Below, in pieces: positions 36,532-55,544 of a DNA stretch of 64,000 nucleotides. Both the position numbers and the translations under genes were made by a program. The stretch covers positions 496,001 through 560,000 of the forward strand of contig NZ_JAMXEX010000001.1 in the NCBI RefSeq assembly GCF_025370775.1. Direction: 5' to 3'. Source of the stretch: Ancylothrix sp. D3o (GTDB lineage Bacteria; Cyanobacteriota; Cyanobacteriia; Cyanobacteriales; Oscillatoriaceae). Numbering within the stretch: the first letter of the stretch is position 1; each line of letters starts with the position of its first letter. The notes under the pieces were generated by a model. The model was not told the origin of the DNA and did no database searches. It was given only the letters and a program-made list of their open reading frames with translations.

Positions 36532-37722
36532 ATGAATAGCCAACCACCGCAGTCCGCTGCTACCCCAATGAATGCCGCAACTTCGGCAAGTACGCCGATT
36601 AACGCGCCCACCGCCCAAAAACAACAAACAAGAACGCCCTTAGTGCTTAAATCGATTATCAGCATCGATTTGGGCCGGACAGCCACAAAAACTTGTGTAG
36701 GCCGAGACGAAGGCACGGTGGCCTTTATTCCCGCCAACGCAATCCAAAAGCCGGTGCAAGACTTACGCGGCGGTACTTTTGAAGTGCGTCCCACTGATCC
36801 TTTAATGGATCTTTGGCTTGAGTATCAAGGCAATGGCTATGCACTTGGTCAACTCGCCGCAGACTTTGGGGCGAAGCTGTTCTCAGACGGCGGATCTGAC
36901 AGAAGAGATAAAGAATCAAAAACCGAAAACGCTCTGGCTAAAGTTTTGGGCTGCATCGGCTATTTCTCTAAAGAACTGAGAGACAAAGACGACCTTTCTA
37001 TTGTCATCAGTTTGCCCTACTATTCTCAAGAAGAATTTGAGCGGGAAAAAGAAAAACTGATTAGCCAACTTACCGGCCCCCACACGATGGTATTTCGTGG
37101 CGAACAAATGAACCTGAACATCACGAAAGTTTGGGTGATTCCTGAAGGCTACGGAAGCTTGATTTGGTGTGAAGCACAGCCGAAAAGAAGCGCAAGCGCA
37201 ACCCCAGCCCCCGATTTCAGCAAAATCTCCGTTGCCATTGTTGATATCGGGCATCAAACTACTGACTGTCTGATGGTTGATAATTTCCGGTTTGCACGGG
37301 CTGCATCTAAAAGCGAACCGTTTGCTATGACAAAATTTTATGAACAAGTGGCGGCTCAAATTGAAGGAGCAGATCCTCAATCTTTGTCGTTGATTGAAGC
37401 TGTCAACCGGCCACGCGGTGATCGCTTTTATCGTCCAAGGGGCGCTCTGAAACCGACCAATTTGGATGATACTCTCCCCAACCTCAAAGAAGGTTTCTCC
37501 CGCGAAATTTGCAACCGCATCTTAGATTGGCTGCCAGAACGAGTAACCCACGTTATCTTAACCGGCGGTGGCGGAGAATTCTTCGCTGAAGATATCGAAC
37601 GTTTACTCAAAGATGCTCGCATCAATACCTATTTAGCTGCGCCTTGCCGCCAAGCTAATGCCCTCGGACAATATATTTACGCAGAAGCTCAACTGGCAGC
37701 ACCCTCTGCATCTCGCCAATAA
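36532..37722 (+). CDS. ParM-like actin-family ATPase
   Basis: Chromosomal homologue of plasmid actin-like ParM/Alp proteins, which polymerise with ATP. 396 residues. A 37-residue Ala/Thr/Pro-rich N-terminal tail precedes the fold. Actin-fold motifs: phosphate-1 IISIDLGRTATKT (42-54), connect-1-like region near 203-212 (IPEGYGSLIW), phosphate-2 VAIVDIGHQTTDCLMVD (234-250), and adenosine motif VILTGGGGEFF (341-351). AGGAG precedes the ATG. The next gene starts 12 bases later and encodes a ParR-like partner, so this is a two-gene cytomotive cassette. No parC-like iteron array was seen upstream. In filamentous cyanobacteria a ParMR-derived system acting on cell shape has been reported (from memory); function here is inferred. 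Confidence 0.85.
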   Translation: MNSQPPQSAATPMNAATSASTPINAPTAQKQQTRTPLVLKSIISIDLGRTATKTCVGRDEGTVAFIPANAIQKPVQDLRGGTFEVRPTDPLMDLWLEYQGNGYALGQLAADFGAKLFSDGGSDRRDKESKTENALAKVLGCIGYFSKELRDKDDLSIVISLPYYSQEEFEREKEKLISQLTGPHTMVFRGEQMNLNITKVWVIPEGYGSLIWCEAQPKRSASATPAPDFSKISVAIVDIGHQTTDCLMVDNFRFARAASKSEPFAMTKFYEQVAAQIEGADPQSLSLIEAVNRPRGDRFYRPRGALKPTNLDDTLPNLKEGFSREICNRILDWLPERVTHVILTGGGGEFFAEDIERLLKDARINTYLAAPCRQANALGQYIYAEAQLAAPSASRQ

Positions 37723-37734
37723 ACTTTAAAGCTG

Positions 37735-38382
37735 ATGTTTCAGTGGTCAAATAAAACGACAAACAAAACGGTCAGCTTCTCTCAAGAGGTCACTGATCGC
37801 ACTTTGCTGAAGATGATTGAAGAGCAAATCATCAACAATCCTCACAAAACGTTCAGTGATCTTTGCAAGGAGGCTCTTTGGCACTTGTTAGGAGTGCCAG
37901 AGTCTTTGCGTCCCAGCCCCAAAATTGGGGAAATGGAACAACAAATCGCCGCCTTGCAAGCTCATGTTATTGAGTTGGAGCAACGTTTGCAAGCAAAAGA
38001 AGTCATCGCCACTCCATCGGCATCACCAGCAAATTCTGTCGATCTATCAGGGTTTAGCGAACGGTTGACTCAACTGCAAAGGCAATTTAATGGCTTTGAG
38101 CAAAGGACGCTTAATGATGTGTCGGGCCGGTTGGCTAGTTTGGAGCGCCTGGTTAGCCAGTTACAACAGCAACAACACAACCAACCAACACCGCCACCAC
38201 CAGAACCTCAGCCTGCGGTAACGCAGAGGCCGGTGACTCCCCAGTGGGGAGGTGTATCATCCTCGCAACCGGCCTCAAAACCTGAATCAAAACCTGAACC
38301 ACAACCGGCTCATAGTGGGCCGGCAGAGCCATCCGATCCTGTATTGGAGCGCCTCAAAGGATTGATAGCAGATGATTTTTAA
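37735..38382 (+). CDS. ParR-like adaptor: ribbon-helix-helix-like N-terminus, coiled coil, Pro-rich tail
   Basis: Likely partner of the actin-like protein. 215 residues. Residues 8-55 fit a ribbon-helix-helix pattern: one strand (KTVSFSQEV), helix (TDRTLLKMIEEQI), turn, and helix (TFSDLCKEALWHLLG). Residues about 62-130 are coiled coil (EMEQQIAALQAHVIELEQRL; LERLVSQLQQQQ). Residues 140-190 are Pro/Gln/Ser-rich and probably disordered. The end, DPVLERLKGLIADDF, looks like a conserved short helix; in plasmid ParR the C-terminal peptide binds the actin filament. The family is not named by clear motif, so the call rests on architecture and gene order. Confidence 0.65.
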   Translation: MFQWSNKTTNKTVSFSQEVTDRTLLKMIEEQIINNPHKTFSDLCKEALWHLLGVPESLRPSPKIGEMEQQIAALQAHVIELEQRLQAKEVIATPSASPANSVDLSGFSERLTQLQRQFNGFEQRTLNDVSGRLASLERLVSQLQQQQHNQPTPPPPEPQPAVTQRPVTPQWGGVSSSQPASKPESKPEPQPAHSGPAEPSDPVLERLKGLIADDF

Positions 38383-49796: not shown

Positions 49797-52700
49797 TTAC
49801 CAAGGACTACCAATCATCGTAAAACCGGCCCAATAATAAGGATGCTTCAAATCACGATTTCCTAACGCCTCCAACTCCGTTGGCAAAGGCACCTTGCCAA
49901 ACGTCCCCACCAAAAAACCATCATCCAAAACCACATCCCCCCGCAGCATAGCAATTTGCGCTTGCCGTAACGCTTCCGCCTTCACAGGAGCCAACTGCAA
50001 ATTCTTATAAAACTCCGCCATCAACCCCAGCGTCCCCGCATCATTGGCATACCATAAAGAAGCCACCGCCGTCTTTACCCCCGCCTGCACCGCCAATCCC
50101 GCAAAACCAAACTCCGCCTGCCTGTCACCTATGGCCGTCCGGCAAGCAGACAAAACCAACAACTCCACCGGCGGATCATTCCACTTCAACTGTCCCATTA
50201 AATTGAGAGTTAACCTCTTATCCCACATTTGAATATAAGAATTTTCCAACTGTCCGGGCTGAAACTCACCATGAGTCGCAATATGAATAATCCCAAAAGG
50301 CCGGTTTTGCCGTTCCTCCTGCAAAGTTTGCAAAGTAAACGACTGATTTAAAAACGCCTCACCCTTCCACAACTGCTGAGTAATAGTTTGCAACTCCACC
50401 GGCACCCCAGGCAAAGCCGGCTGATCCGAAAACTCCGACATCCCCATCGCCAACAAAGGCACATTCTTTATATTTGCATACCGAACATCCGTCAAATTCA
50501 AACTTGGAACCAAACTCAAACTATATTTCTCTACCAAAAACTGCTTCCCATCATACAACGCCGCTATCGGCAAAGACCGCAGCCCCCCATCCATACTAAA
50601 CATCAAACTTTGCACACCTAACCTTTCTAAATCCGGCAGCAACGGGGCAATCATCCACTCATAAAGTTGCTGCGAAGCCGCTGCATAACTATTCGTGCGA
50701 CGCTTCACCGGATTGCCTATTTCTTGCTGGAACTCTTGAACCTTTGCCATCAACGTCGCTCTATTTGCCTGCGGAATAGTCTTATAAATCGGCTCACCCG
50801 CCATCGGCACCAACAACAAATCAAGCTGACTATCCCGCGCAAAAATATACACAATTGCCGACTGAATACCCGTCTGCTGGCTACGACTTCTCAAAGTTTC
50901 TTGAATTCCCGCAAAAGACAAATTAGAAACAGCCAATTTCTGCCCCAAATAGTCCTCAAACTCCTCACTATAAAACTGCTCGGTTAACCGCACCGCCTCC
51001 ATCACATTGCCTTGTCTCAGCAAATCTTCAATTTCATTGCGAGTCACCAATCGTATTGGCAAAAACTGCTGATTAAACGCAGTCGGCCCCGAAATTTCGT
51101 TTTCACGTTCACTCCTCGATAGTCTAGCGTCCCCGTTCGGGCTAGACTGAGCCGAATTTTGGCCCTTTTCTTGAACCAAAAACGAATTCGCAGCATTTAC
51201 AGCCTCTTGAGGCATCGGCACATTTTCCCTACCGCCACCCTCAACACTATTGCCCTGCGAAACTCCCCCACCCTCAAGAGGTCTCCCCACACTTCCCCCC
51301 CCTACAACCGCATTATTACCTTGAGGGGAGGGTACTGGTAAAGCAGTCGCTGGTGGCTGGGGTGCTGCATTGGTGACAGGCAAACTGGGGGCAGTAACCC
51401 CTTGCTGCGGGGGAGCCTCAGCAAAAGTCGGCGTTTCCCCAGTCACCGGCGAAGGATTTGGCGTTCCCCCAGTCACCGGCGAAGGATTTGGCGTTCCCCC
51501 AGTCCCAGGAGACGGATTTGGCGTTCCCCCAGTCCCAGGCGAAGGATTTGGCGTTTCAGGCGGCACCGGCGAAGGATTTGGCGTTTCAGGTGGCACCGGC
51601 GAAGGATTTGGCGTTTCAGGTGGCACCGGCGAAGGATCTGGCGTTTCAGGCGGCACCGGCGAAGGATTTGGCGTTTCAGGCGGCACCGGCGAAGGATTTG
51701 GCGTTTCAGGTGGCACCGGCGAGGGATTTGGCGTTTCAGGCGGCACCGGCGAGGGCTCTGGAGGTTCTACCGTCGGGTCAGTTGCCGTCGAAGTCGTAAA
51801 ATTATTCCCCAGATCCGCTAACTGACCACTAATCGTCGCCCCGTTGTAATAAACAAAACTATCATTAGCCGTCCCTCCCGTTAAGTTGGGAATATTAGTC
51901 CAAGTTAAACCCAAAGGATAACCGCTAATACTGCCACTGTTATTGCCGATAATATCCCAAGTGGTATTGCGGTTTGGCCCCACCAAAGTTGTCGCCCCGT
52001 TAATATTCACCGGCACCCCAAAAGCCGCAAAATCGCCCAGATATATTGTGCCTGTACCGTCATCGCGTCCAATATTCAGCCGCGTAAAACCTGTAATTGC
52101 AGGTAATTCTGCCGTATTTAAATCTAAACTTGTCGTGCTCTCGGTATTGGTACCAATATCAATATTTCGTCCTGGTGTGGCCGGTCTGATCGTTATATTG
52201 CCGGTGCCTATAATCGAACCAGCCCCGGCATTTAAACCAATATTATCTCCCGTTAACGTCATATCCTCCGCTATCGTTGTGCCGTTAAGATTGACGCTGC
52301 CGGTGCCGGCATTAATATCAATCGTCCCCCCATCGACACCCAAAGCGTTGATATCTTGAGTATTAATATCCCGTCCGCCACTTCGCAGGGTAATCGTGCC
52401 GGCAGTCCCGGCAAATGAACTGACATCTAGGGTACCGCTGGTGTTAAGTGCGCCTTGGCTGCCATTAACGATCAAAGTAATATCGCCGCCGTTGCCGGCA
52501 CCCCCTGAAGTGGTAGTGATGGTGTTGGTGTTGATACCGCCGCTGTTAGTGGTAAAAGTAACATTACCACCGTTGCCGGTTGCTGAACTCGCGTTGATAG
52601 TACCAGGGATGTTATTAATATTGCCAACGCCACCGGCACTCACGGTAATAGGGCCGGCATCCCCACTGCCTTCGACCGCTGTAATTAAGTTTCTCAGGTT

Positions 52701-54743
52701 AATATCGCCATTGGCTGTAGTAATAGAAATTGCGCCGCCTGTGCCGGTGATTGAGCCGGCAGTAAGGGTGTTATTGTTGATATTTACCACACCGTTTCCA
52801 CCGGCATTTATGGTGATGTTGCCGGAGGTTGTTCCGAGACTAGACTGAGTAATTAAGTCATTAACGTTAATATCTCCGTCAGCGGTTGTCAGGGAAATAT
52901 TGCCGCCGTTTCCTAATACAGAACTGGCATCTAATGTGCCGGGGTTGATGTTTATATTGGCGTTGGTGCCGCCTGCACTTAAAATAATATCTCCGCCTCT
53001 GCCGGTGTTGGTGCTGTTGGTTGTTAAGTTGCCGGTATTGAGGATGCCATTGGCGGTTGTAATTCTAATGGAGCCGCCATCGTCGGCGCTTGAAGTGTCT
53101 ACGCTTCCCAGGTTCACGCTTGCGGCTGAGATTTCAATATTTCTGCCTGGTGCGACAATTGACTGCCCGTTGCTCATCGAAAAAGCACCGGTGCCACTGC
53201 CGCTAAGATTGGCTCTAAAGGTAATTGAGCCTCCGGGTACAAAGGTTAGGGATATGTTTTGATCTAGGGTGATATTTTCTGTCGCTTCTAGTACGATGTT
53301 TCCGCTTTGATTTTCTAAGGTTGCGGCGCTAATTGTAATATCTGTATCGGGGAAATCTGTTAATAATATATCTGGTAAAGCTGTATCCGGTTCGGAGTCG
53401 GTGCCGGCGTTTCTTGCAATTCTAATATTTCTTGGATCTAGTAATAGGGTTCCTGCCGCACCATTGGGGGCTGATACATCTGCTTTTCCTTTAAATATTA
53501 ATGTTTCTTTGCCAGAAACTTCGACAAAACCGCCATTGCCGGAAGTTCCGCCCAGTGCGTTGATATTGCCATAAAAGCCGGTGATTTCGTTGGCCCAGAT
53601 AATTATTCGTCCGTTATTGGTGCCTTCTATGGCGTTGGCGTTGAGGGTGGTGTCTTGGCTAATAAAGGTGCGGAGGGCGTTGGGTACGTTTCCTTTTCCT
53701 TGAAAGTCTCCGCCGATTAAAATGTTGCTACCGTTGGGGCTGTTGGCGTTGATATTTGCTTTCATTAAGGCAATTTTTTCGCCAAAAATGCCTACGGTTG
53801 AAGTTGGGGAAGAAATGTTTGGATGGGAAATGTTGAGGTTTCCGCTAATGATGGCGGTGCCGTTTGTTGTGGGGATGGGTGTTTGGGAGGCGGTAAGGCT
53901 GACGCTGCCATCGGGGTTGAGGGTGAGTCCGGTGGCGTTGTTATTGCCGATGCCGGTGAGCAGTTGGGGTATGCTCAGGGGTGTAATGTTGTTGGGTTGA
54001 GTTTCTGGGGTGGTTTGGATGTCTAGGCTGAGTACCATCCCTGGTTGAGAAAGACGGACGAGGTTTTGTCCGGGTACGGCGGCGATGGTGATGCTACCGG
54101 CTGGTGCTGTGAGGGTGCCGGTGTTGATGACTGTGCCGGCGATGAGGCTGATATTTTGGCCTGCGGATACGGCGAGGTTAGCGCTGTTGATCAGGTTTCC
54201 GCTTTCGGGGTGGGGGAAGTTAAAGGTGTTTGGGTTGCCGGCCAAGCTGGTGTAGTTGTTGGGGCCGGTGGCGTTGAAGGTACCGTTGTTAAATCCGATG
54301 CTGCTGGCGGTGGTGGCAAAAAATGAAGCCGGCACGTTTAAGGAGGCGTTGGGGCCAAATATCATGCCGGCTGGGTTCATTAAATATAGGTTGGGGTTCC
54401 CCCCAGAAATTTGCAGTCTTCCGTCTATGTGGGAGGCATTCCCTCCTGAAATTCGGGTTAGGATATTGCGAAGTTCGGGGGAGGAAATGAAGTTAGCTGT
54501 TTGACCGGCTGTGAGGTTAAATTCTTGAAAACTATGGAAAAGGTTGCCTCTGTCTGTTGATAGTTTTCCGCCGGTAATGTCTAGGTTGCTGCCGTTTGGC
54601 GTCACCAGGGTGCCGGTGCCATCCGAAGAGGGAATCAGGGTTTGAGAGCTTGCTGGGCCGGTGGCCATCCAGGTCATAATGGCAGGCATTACCAAGCTGA
54701 TCTGAATCAGTAAGCCGGTTTTACTCGTTCCCCTCTTCGACAT
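49797..54743 (-). CDS. Exported FHA-type (TPS) protein with C-terminal CHAT caspase-like protease
   Basis: 1648 residues. Signal peptide 1-34 (ends ASSQ). TPS haemagglutination-activity domain at about 36-290, with LYLMNPAGMIFGPNASLNVPASFFATTA typical of two-partner secretion substrates. Residues about 290-985 are beta-helix-forming repeats (GNGGNISLTTADGDINVNDL and similar). Residues about 990-1107 are about eleven copies of a 10-residue PPETPNPSPV-type repeat, probably a rigid or extended linker. Residues about 1240-1645 are a CHAT domain with catalytic His1491 (HIATHGEF) and Cys1534 (LVLSACRTA), both present. By family knowledge the FHA part is exported through a TpsB/FhaC pore, but none is in this window. 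What the protease cuts is unknown. It is operonic with DUF928 (6-base gap) and two kinases. Confidence 0.93.
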   Translation of the reverse strand: MSKRGTSKTGLLIQISLVMPAIMTWMATGPASSQTLIPSSDGTGTLVTPNGSNLDITGGKLSTDRGNLFHSFQEFNLTAGQTANFISSPELRNILTRISGGNASHIDGRLQISGGNPNLYLMNPAGMIFGPNASLNVPASFFATTASSIGFNNGTFNATGPNNYTSLAGNPNTFNFPHPESGNLINSANLAVSAGQNISLIAGTVINTGTLTAPAGSITIAAVPGQNLVRLSQPGMVLSLDIQTTPETQPNNITPLSIPQLLTGIGNNNATGLTLNPDGSVSLTASQTPIPTTNGTAIISGNLNISHPNISSPTSTVGIFGEKIALMKANINANSPNGSNILIGGDFQGKGNVPNALRTFISQDTTLNANAIEGTNNGRIIIWANEITGFYGNINALGGTSGNGGFVEVSGKETLIFKGKADVSAPNGAAGTLLLDPRNIRIARNAGTDSEPDTALPDILLTDFPDTDITISAATLENQSGNIVLEATENITLDQNISLTFVPGGSITFRANLSGSGTGAFSMSNGQSIVAPGRNIEISAASVNLGSVDTSSADDGGSIRITTANGILNTGNLTTNSTNTGRGGDIILSAGGTNANININPGTLDASSVLGNGGNISLTTADGDINVNDLITQSSLGTTSGNITINAGGNGVVNINNNTLTAGSITGTGGAISITTANGDINLRNLITAVEGSGDAGPITVSAGGVGNINNIPGTINASSATGNGGNVTFTTNSGGINTNTITTTSGGAGNGGDITLIVNGSQGALNTSGTLDVSSFAGTAGTITLRSGGRDINTQDINALGVDGGTIDINAGTGSVNLNGTTIAEDMTLTGDNIGLNAGAGSIIGTGNITIRPATPGRNIDIGTNTESTTSLDLNTAELPAITGFTRLNIGRDDGTGTIYLGDFAAFGVPVNINGATTLVGPNRNTTWDIIGNNSGSISGYPLGLTWTNIPNLTGGTANDSFVYYNGATISGQLADLGNNFTTSTATDPTVEPPEPSPVPPETPNPSPVPPETPNPSPVPPETPNPSPVPPETPDPSPVPPETPNPSPVPPETPNPSPVPPETPNPSPGTGGTPNPSPGTGGTPNPSPVTGGTPNPSPVTGETPTFAEAPPQQGVTAPSLPVTNAAPQPPATALPVPSPQGNNAVVGGGSVGRPLEGGGVSQGNSVEGGGRENVPMPQEAVNAANSFLVQEKGQNSAQSSPNGDARLSRSERENEISGPTAFNQQFLPIRLVTRNEIEDLLRQGNVMEAVRLTEQFYSEEFEDYLGQKLAVSNLSFAGIQETLRSRSQQTGIQSAIVYIFARDSQLDLLLVPMAGEPIYKTIPQANRATLMAKVQEFQQEIGNPVKRRTNSYAAASQQLYEWMIAPLLPDLERLGVQSLMFSMDGGLRSLPIAALYDGKQFLVEKYSLSLVPSLNLTDVRYANIKNVPLLAMGMSEFSDQPALPGVPVELQTITQQLWKGEAFLNQSFTLQTLQEERQNRPFGIIHIATHGEFQPGQLENSYIQMWDKRLTLNLMGQLKWNDPPVELLVLSACRTAIGDRQAEFGFAGLAVQAGVKTAVASLWYANDAGTLGLMAEFYKNLQLAPVKAEALRQAQIAMLRGDVVLDDGFLVGTFGKVPLPTELEALGNRDLKHPYYWAGFTMIGSPW
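51421..51770. repeat. 30-base tandem repeat (about 11.5 copies) coding a Pro-rich linker
   Basis: A 30-base unit, on the plus strand GGCGAAGGATTTGGCGTTTC plus AGGCGGCACC, repeats in perfect register from about 51421 to 51765. Copies at the left end carry CCCCAGTCACC or CCCCAGTCCCA in place of CAGGCGGCACC, giving TGGTPNPSPV instead of PPETPNPSPV on the coding (minus) strand. The unit is a multiple of 3, so copy-number change keeps the frame. Confidence 0.92.
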
Positions 54744-54749
54744 TTTTTA

Positions 54750-55544
54750 CTACTCCTGACTTATTTCGATAGTATCCACAACGGGTTCTTGTGCAAATCG
54801 TTCGAGTTCAACCGATCTGAGCAGTCTTTCCCAGCTATTTAACAATTCTTGATTTTCTGGCTGATTTTGGCGCAATTTGGCAAGTGTCGAAACGGCTTCG
54901 TGCCAAATACCCGCATCTGCATAAACTGCTGCTTGTTCGCTTAAAGAATTTGCTTGGTTTAGTTGTTCTGTTAAGCTTGCGCTTTGAACAGTTCTTTCGA
55001 TCCACCCATCCACAACGGTATCGCCTGTTCGGTCATTGCTATCGCAAACCATTGCTAAATACCAATGATACATTTTTCCAATCTTTAGTGCGGGTGCGTT
55101 GGTTTTGGGCAGAGTGAAACCCACAATGCCGGCTTTTGAAGGAAGCGGGATTTTTGTTGTGTAAATTACCTGGGAGTCTGTTTCATCCATTAAGGTGAAT
55201 TCTAGTCTGACAGCCGTTGAAGCTGGCACATACCAAAAAAATGTCGGTTTCTCTGAGACAGTCAGGGGTAAGGAATTTCCTGGTGTCAGTGCGGTTAATC
55301 CTTTTTGACCTGGTTTGACTAACCCACAACCTCTCGATCCTCCGTCCGCTGTTCTCGGTGGGGCCCCGCGATCAGGCGGTTGAAAGGTTTGGCTGATTAA
55401 TTGTTGGTTTATTGAATTCAGGTTAAGGCTGGCTGTTTGTGTTGTAGCATTTGCCGGTCTGGTTAACCCCGGATAAACCGCGATTCCTAACACCACCGCC
55501 GCTACACTCATGGCTAGTCGTTGGCAAGATTGTTTTGTGTTCAT
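54750..55544 (-). CDS. DUF928 family exported protein
   Basis: 264 residues. Signal peptide 1-34 (SVAAVVLGIAVYPGLTRPANA). The DUF928 domain runs from about 60 to 230: GCGLVKPGQKGLTALTPGNSLPLTVSEKPTFFWYVP, LEFTLMDETDSQVIYTTKIPLP, KIGKMYHWYLAMVCDSNDRTGDTVVDGWIER, with two Cys that may pair. The C-terminus is a short TPR-like helical stretch (YADAGIWHEAVSTLAKLRQNQP). Function unknown; by memory these proteins often sit beside CHAT or CHASE2 genes in cyanobacteria. It is the first gene of the minus-strand operon and ends 6 bases before the FHA-CHAT start, so the two are tightly coupled. Confidence 0.88.
   Translation of the reverse strand: MNTKQSCQRLAMSVAAVVLGIAVYPGLTRPANATTQTASLNLNSINQQLISQTFQPPDRGAPPRTADGGSRGCGLVKPGQKGLTALTPGNSLPLTVSEKPTFFWYVPASTAVRLEFTLMDETDSQVIYTTKIPLPSKAGIVGFTLPKTNAPALKIGKMYHWYLAMVCDSNDRTGDTVVDGWIERTVQSASLTEQLNQANSLSEQAAVYADAGIWHEAVSTLAKLRQNQPENQELLNSWERLLRSVELERFAQEPVVDTIEISQE

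Follow-up and report, generated by a model that had tools for sequence, protein, structure and literature searches.

We found that the segment under study is spanned exactly by a single open reading frame (ORF) on the minus strand of the window, by which we mean the whole 64,000-nucleotide stretch from Ancylothrix sp. D3o, and that its product joins a TPS secretion domain to a CHAT protease domain (Table 1). The preliminary description had read a signal peptide, a TPS domain and a Pro-rich linker ahead of a CHAT domain with His1491 and Cys1534, and each of these parts was recovered. The N-terminus reads by eye as a Sec signal, and the only 19-mers of the protein whose hydropathy averages more than 1.4 begin at residues 9-11 (signal peptides throughout were judged by eye and hydropathy alone). 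The TPS domain scores 139.5 bits against PF05860 (Pfam, cut-off 33.5) and 81.6 bits against a second model, TIGR01901. The CHAT domain at residues 1356-1646 scores 227.1 bits against PF12770 (cut-off 24), covers profile positions 3-289 of 289, and carries both catalytic residues at the positions named. When compared by phmmer with the proteins of solved structures, the protein has EtpA as its top TPS match (residues 41-356, E = 4e-10), and a heme/hemopexin-binding protein matches residues 44-214; these homologies, together with a self-similarity of the stalk at a lag of 56 residues, support the presumed beta-helix. The Pro-rich linker begins at about residue 989 and holds the 10.3-copy repeat.

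The fusion gene stands in a row of four genes on one strand, with the DUF928 gene upstream at a gap of 6 bp and the genes for the CHASE2 histidine kinase (CHASE2-HK) and then the REC-HisKA-HATPase protein (REC-HK) downstream, the first of these 42 bp beyond the fusion stop codon. The order DUF928, TPS-CHAT, CHASE2-HK, REC-HK is repeated in Laspinema palackyanum (locus L042) and in an Oscillatoria MAG (L043), and L. olomoucense (L044) has the same row with TPS and CHAT as two overlapping ORFs. Locus L047 begins within the CHAT gene and retains the last part of the row, and in L046 the parts are rearranged. Across these five loci the CHASE2 proteins are 54-59% and the REC kinases 62-64% identical to those of the window. 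Elsewhere in the window (36532-38382), on what is a 1-Mb contig, a ParM/StbA-type actin-like protein (by eye) is followed by a small protein.

Table 1. Features of the TPS-CHAT gene and its neighbours in the window.
Feature	Position	Strand	Basis
DUF928 protein, 264 aa, signal sequence by eye, two conserved Cys	54750..55544	-	Pfam, model
TPS-CHAT fusion gene, 1648 aa	49797..54743	-	ORF and Pfam
Sec-type signal sequence, residues 1-34	54642..54743	-	Boundary by eye
TPS secretion domain, residues 45-244	54012..54611	-	PF05860, TIGR01901, phmmer to EtpA
Repetitive G/T/N-rich stalk, residues 261-985, presumed beta-helix	51789..53963	-	Composition, 56-residue periodicity
Pro-rich linker, residues 986-1240	51024..51788	-	Sequence reading
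30-bp tandem repeat, 10.3 copies, PETPNPSPVP-like linker units	51444..51752	-	Repeat within linker
CHAT protease module, residues 1241-1648 and stop	49797..51023	-	Pfam, AF2, fold match
His1491 codon, catalytic	50271..50273	-	Invariant in 52/52 aligned CHATs
Cys1534 codon, catalytic, sole Cys of the protein	50142..50144	-	Sequence, alignment
CHASE2-HisKA-HATPase sensor kinase, 731 aa	47559..49754	-	Pfam
REC-HisKA-HATPase protein, 410 aa	46291..47523	-	Pfam; same place in relatives

Predicted fold and active site of the CHAT module

Structure prediction of the CHAT module (residues 1241-1648, AF2) from an alignment of 52 CHATs, comprising 45 of the best 80 of 490 loci, the window and six paralogues from its own genome, gave a caspase/separase fold with a mean pLDDT of 93.7. 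The top structural match of the model is Csx29/TPR-CHAT of Craspase (Z = 28.4, 330 residues aligned), followed by separase (Z = 25.2), with gingipains (Z = 18.9) and caspases also lower; by sequence profile, no solved structure was found for CHAT at E 0.01. The dyad H1491/C1534 is invariant across the alignment and its members lie 43 residues apart. According to the available part of the Csx29 report, the catalytic pair of that protease, H615 and C658, is likewise 43 apart, and the H615A/C658A change abolishes activity (PMC10028731). The identical spacing and the Csx29 fold match argue against the His and Cys being far apart.

Searching with a motif pattern, we found both catalytic residues in 84 of 88 CHAT ORFs from the best 80 of 490 loci. 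The exceptions are L048, which reads LSSC, L052, which ends at the locus border, L083, and the frame-broken L107, whose His and Cys both lie in its second ORF. Separately, and as a lead only, the transmembrane anti-sigma factor DdvA has a CHAT-like fold (Z = 19.8).

Cysteine depletion and export of the fusions

The TPS-CHAT architecture is beyond chance, with at least 49 complete fusions in other cyanobacterial genomes among the best 80 of 490 loci, a set that excludes L107 and whose counts are not independent because the loci share lineages. The catalytic Cys is present in all 49, as is a TH-motif His, and the two are spaced by 43 residues in 42 of them and by 42, 44 or 45 in the remaining seven (an extra pair at spacing 35 in L101 is spurious). 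Non-catalytic cysteines number 43 in their 90,958 mature residues, or 0.47 per 1000, and 30 of the 49 have no second mature Cys. For comparison, the rate is 9.98 per 1000 in unannotated ORFs of at least 250 aa at the same loci, which are mechanical ORFs and not all genes, and in the genome of the window it is 8.9 per 1000 in the other ORFs of the window and 6.6 per 1000 in fetched stretches, exported proteins included. A catalytic Cys retained amid near-complete loss of the others is expected of an active cysteine protease outside the cytoplasm, and the pattern points to the fusions being exactly that. Export of the TPS-CHAT protein is well supported. That the protein is cytoplasmic, or its CHAT inactive, is scarcely credible given the signal sequence read by eye, the depletion of cysteines and a dyad present in 49/49.

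The preliminary description had started from the view that most CHAT proteases act in the cytoplasm, which is at odds with this genome. Its 28 CHAT places yielded 21 proteins that were read, and 15 of these have an export-type hydrophobic segment at the N-terminus (by eye) and are Cys-poor, with 0.5-6.2 Cys per 1000 after residue 50; the other six have 9.4-16.5 Cys per 1000.

Conservation is uneven along the fusions, and in 4/4 comparisons identity was 58-64% in CHAT, 52-56% in the TPS domain, 45-47% in the stalk and 29-38% in the linker. A TPS stalk with a C-terminal enzyme could suggest a contact-dependent toxin, in which CHAT would be a CdiA-CT-like effector delivered to neighbours. However, the CHAT domain is the best-conserved region, the reverse of what polymorphic CT toxins display, and the 42 bp between the fusion stop and the CHASE2 gene leave no possibility of a directly downstream immunity gene; we regard such CDI-like delivery as very improbable. 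A universal low-hydrophobic linker suited to pore threading was also considered and rejected, since the longest such run has a median of 20 aa among the 49 fusions and ends no more than 150 aa from where the CHAT profile starts in just 6/49, and the linker was dropped as evidence.

Several relatives carry TPS and CHAT in separate, adjacent or overlapping ORFs (L044:6052-11227, L107:3009-6110, L095:173-5678), which could be slippage (phase variation), a genuine split or an assembly error. Viral contigs gave 83 pattern matches and no CHAT relative by tblastn. Among plasmids, 25 records have a CHAT relative at E 1e-40, all less than 60% identical; many plasmid CHAT records are named CHAT domain-containing protein, and one gene examined, of 1353 bp, is annotated as CHAT alone. 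Databases presumably already list the fusions themselves automatically under the same name.

TpsB exporters and the side of the outer membrane

A search for a TpsB partner elsewhere in the genome had been suggested, and exporters are there, with six POTRA_2 places in the genome, but none adjoins the gene, the window itself having no such place. A TpsB gene lies within 8 kb of the fusion in 5/49 relatives, and TpsB genes near fusions were seen at L024, L106, L114, L116, L120 and L121. The one at L024 and a TPS-CHAT fusion lie on opposite strands, about 1.1 kb apart; at L120, a 382-aa ORF with a TpsB profile match overlaps the 3' end of the fusion. At L028 the TpsB gene sits between split TPS and CHAT genes, and the ShlB domain was confirmed by Pfam in both proteins tested (L024 and L028). 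A 1441-aa ORF at L130:2797-7122 matches both TPS and TpsB profiles and looks like a TpsA-TpsB fusion; CHAT, DUF928 and CHASE2 lie next to it. In the available part of one source, the Hmw1B group of TpsB is described as chiefly cyanobacterial (PMC4104836).

Further regions, 20 in number and from other genomes, were picked for co-located parts and show arrangement, not frequency; in 14 of them TPS, CHAT, DUF928 and CHASE2 are all separate ORFs. A hydrophobic 12-mer near the N-terminus with a mean of at least 1.8 is found in 15/17 separate CHATs, against 0/9 CHASE2 proteins whose N-terminal part is soluble, and 15/17 have 2 to 4 Cys after residue 75. The separate CHAT of L132 lacks the expected Cys motif, and in that of L139 (626 aa) the hydrophobic stretch near the N-terminus is weak. 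The split TPS proteins carry a C-terminal pair of cysteines in a tail akin to the Hmw1-type anchor: in all 24 complete ones a Cys lies 1-30 residues before the C-terminus and a second one 49-117 residues before it, ranges taken post hoc from those 24 and followed by a held-out profile as the subsequent test, and 23 have exactly two Cys after residue 75. An initial criterion, both Cys in the last 80 residues, captured just 2/24 and was discarded. The tail profile, built from three genomes, matched 10/10 held-out split TPS, the single stretch kept per protein being C-terminal in 8/10, as well as 3/4 split TPS of the genome of the window, the fourth of which (L030) resembles the fused group in its TPS match and includes a stretch of unread bases. 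Against 54 fusions including that of the window, the same profile gave 0 matches at E < 0.01, the best being 0.052.

The C-termini of HxuA and HMW1 are expected to be periplasmic, that of HxuA by way of an anchor that is disulfide-bonded and sits in the TpsB pore, according to the available part of one review (PMC5422565). The presence of the Cys-pair tail in split TPS proteins and its absence in the fusions lead us to place CHAT at the periplasmic end, in the tail's stead. The two groups also differ in their TPS domains, the fused ones matching profile positions 8-227 whereas 3/4 of the split ones in the genome of the window begin at position 1, so that the absence of the tail may reflect lineage and not replacement. 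At L124, L126 and L129, three to four split TPS genes stand in tandem upstream of CHAT, DUF928 and CHASE2, which suggests an expansion of the stalk repertoire for one sensor set.

The preliminary description had placed the protease at the tip of a cell-surface fibre. An exported, active-looking protease stands, on the signal sequence, the TPS domain, the TpsB genes, the cysteine depletion and the Csx29-like fold; the final step to the fibre tip fares less well. If the whole protein crossed the outer membrane, a CHAT at the end of the stalk could cut neighbours, phage or environmental proteins, and this would agree with a TPS domain and TpsB genes in the same genome, with the near-total loss of Cys, and with fusions devoid of the tail that would retain the C-terminus inside. 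Moreover, LepA is listed as a TPS-secreted protease in the available part of a TPS review, which means that TPS is able to export a protease. Nevertheless, TpsB threads its client N-terminus first, so that a C-terminal CHAT would cross last, and CHAT is predicted with confidence as one large fold that may not thread. The separate CHATs beside split TPS proteins bear signal-like N-termini and no TPS domain, and thus have no known TpsB route, and its partners DUF928 and CHASE2 would be expected on the periplasmic side. We consider a surface-tip protease unlikely, and favour a CHAT that is periplasmic and faces DUF928 and CHASE2.

DUF928 and CHASE2 as recurring partners

The DUF928 model consists of an FN3-like sandwich followed by helices (pLDDT 82.1), and across 19 sequences one of its Cys is invariant and the other nearly so. 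No solved structure was found for DUF928 by sequence profile at E 0.1; the top structural match of the model is MtxA (Z = 9.7, 151 residues). In the available part of the MtxA paper, the gene after that of MtxA has similarity to adenylate cyclase and CHASE2 (PMC4439547), an outside hint that DUF928-like proteins may act for receptors of the CHASE2 type. In Nostoc, CHASE2, DUF928 and WD40 genes share a cluster, as noted in the available part of another report (PMC5587647).

In the genome of the window, all nine TPS places are associated with CHAT, five by fusion and four within 10 kb, against a random mean of 0.7, under a random placement that ignores contigs and with 5/9 near CHAT owing to fusion. 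By the same placement, DUF928 lies within 10 kb of CHAT in 8/10 cases (random mean 0.8) and CHASE2 is near DUF928 in 8/12 (random mean 0.4). A phylum sample of 58 other genomes, covering TPS rows above the cut-off and the CHASE2 and CHAT rows of genomes with TPS, plus those of G022 (CHASE2) and G048 (CHAT), has TPS over the cut-off in 14 genomes, at 91 places. At least 23 of these are fused with CHAT, at least 33 of the other 68 lie within 12 kb of CHAT (random 2.9), and of 67 DUF928, at least 49 have CHASE2 nearby (random 2.4). The fusions themselves have DUF928 within 12 kb in 4/23 among those listed (random 0.5) and CHASE2 in at least 2/23; similarly, 8 of the 49 relatives' fusions have DUF928 within 8 kb and 6 have CHASE2. 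With DUF928 near so few of them, most fusions are solitary and the sensor row is a minority setting; the window belongs to this minority, in which the fusion and the DUF928-CHASE2 sensor pair come together.

The outputs attached to CHASE2 vary: the window has a histidine kinase, L027, L029 and L034 each have a nucleotide cyclase, and L028, L030 and L033 have a CHAT at the N-terminus. In these last three (L028:12823-15219, L030:12253-14700, L033:9749-12043) the N-terminal CHAT is presumably cytoplasmic and stands beside DUF928 and exported CHATs, and CHATs possibly occupy both sides of the inner membrane. The idea that the CHASE2-linked CHAT is catalytically dead, raised by a miss in the motif search, was rejected, with the His present in 9/9 of the alignments displayed of 11 and a Cys aligned to the catalytic one in 2. 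A match in L025 labelled CHASE2 by BLAST is not among the Pfam CHASE2 places. Finally, two short signal-bearing CHAT genes (L037:4860-7604 and L038:4841-7518) are 48% and 44% identical to the CHAT module of the window, and lie downstream of ORFs of 371 and 358 aa with no Pfam match, a possible new partner protein.

A putative relay across the envelope

Our overall reading, to which we give close to an even chance, is that of an exported CHAT protease at the C-terminus of a TPS exoprotein, located in the periplasm and working with sensor proteins of the periplasm and the inner membrane. The analysis shows the domain architecture, the dyad, the predicted fold, the loss of cysteines and the gene row with its recurrence; from these we infer the location and activity of CHAT, its substrate and the direction of the signal. 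The signal sequence suggests that Sec would export the fusion protein; as in the family at large, the TPS domain would then engage a TpsB encoded elsewhere and the stalk would be threaded out N-terminus first. The C-terminal CHAT may fold and remain in the periplasm, substituting for the Cys-pair tail of split TPS proteins and facing DUF928 and the CHASE2 kinase. Contact, binding or pulling borne by the stalk would activate CHAT, which could then cleave a target in the periplasm, possibly its own linker or DUF928; the change would be relayed by CHASE2 to the two histidine-kinase proteins.

A periplasmic CHAT could instead act as part of a self-releasing adhesin that cuts its own linker and sheds the stalk, the fused counterpart of CdrA and LapG. 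In the available part of the review, periplasmic LapG frees CdrA by a cut in its C-terminal tail (PMC5422565), and a tandem-repeat linker adjoins the protease here. No cut site was found in that linker, however, and as the least conserved part of the protein it speaks against one fixed site; split systems, too, retain both a separate CHAT and the Cys-pair tail. We judge self-release improbable.

Returning to the relay, we propose more tentatively that TPS stalk, exported CHAT, DUF928 and CHASE2 form a previously undescribed envelope-spanning signalling system of cyanobacteria, in which a caspase-like protease would plug the surface stalk at its periplasmic end, or a separate protease in the periplasm would be paired with the stalk, and DUF928 and CHASE2 would read the cut and pass it on to one of several interchangeable outputs, be it a histidine kinase, a nucleotide cyclase or a further CHAT in the cytoplasm. 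Most discussion of caspase relatives in prokaryotes concerns cytoplasmic proteases of cell death or CRISPR, whereas the family found here is apparently exported, has lost nearly all other cysteines, and is linked with surface stalks and with sensor genes. If the proposal is true, cyanobacteria gain a protease-based inward relay of surface events, DUF928 and CHASE2 acquire a shared context, and many unexplained CHAT genes a testable role.

Comparison with known systems

In the full-text literature searched, which takes in few subscription journals, 'CHASE2' and 'CHAT domain' never occur together, nor do 'CHAT domain', 'cyanobacteria' and 'hemagglutinin', and 'DUF928' occurs in one paper. Among characterised proteins, Csx29/TPR-CHAT of Craspase shares with the window protein the CHAT fold over 330 residues (Z = 28.4) and the 43-residue dyad spacing; unlike it, Csx29 bears TPR and is bound to the Cas7-11 RNA effector, whereas the window protein has a TPS stalk and a signal and no TPR match. 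Separase and the gingipains, the latter extracellular, have the caspase-like fold (Z = 25.2 and 18.9) and differ in domain context and secretion route. The cyanobacterial HetF likewise has a CHAT domain whose conserved active site is required for function, but is a divisome and heterocyst protein with TM and TPR segments, and TPS is unmentioned in the available part of its source. MtxA resembles the DUF928 model (Z = 9.7) and has a CHASE2-adenylate cyclase gene behind its own gene, but comes from magnetotactic bacteria, and the word 'CHAT' is absent from that paper (PMC4439547).

TPS exoproteins such as FHA, HMW1, HxuA, EtpA and LepA have the same signal, TPS domain and long repetitive stalk, with LepA also a listed protease; the fusion differs from them in its C-terminal caspase-fold domain, its missing Cys-pair tail, the lack of an adjoining TpsB and the presence of adjoining sensor genes. 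The LapG fold differs from the CHAT fold. CdrA and LapG nevertheless offer a likeness in that, as far as the available part of the source goes, a protease controls a TPS stalk at its periplasmic end; LapG, however, is a separate protein, whereas here the protease is fused to the stalk.
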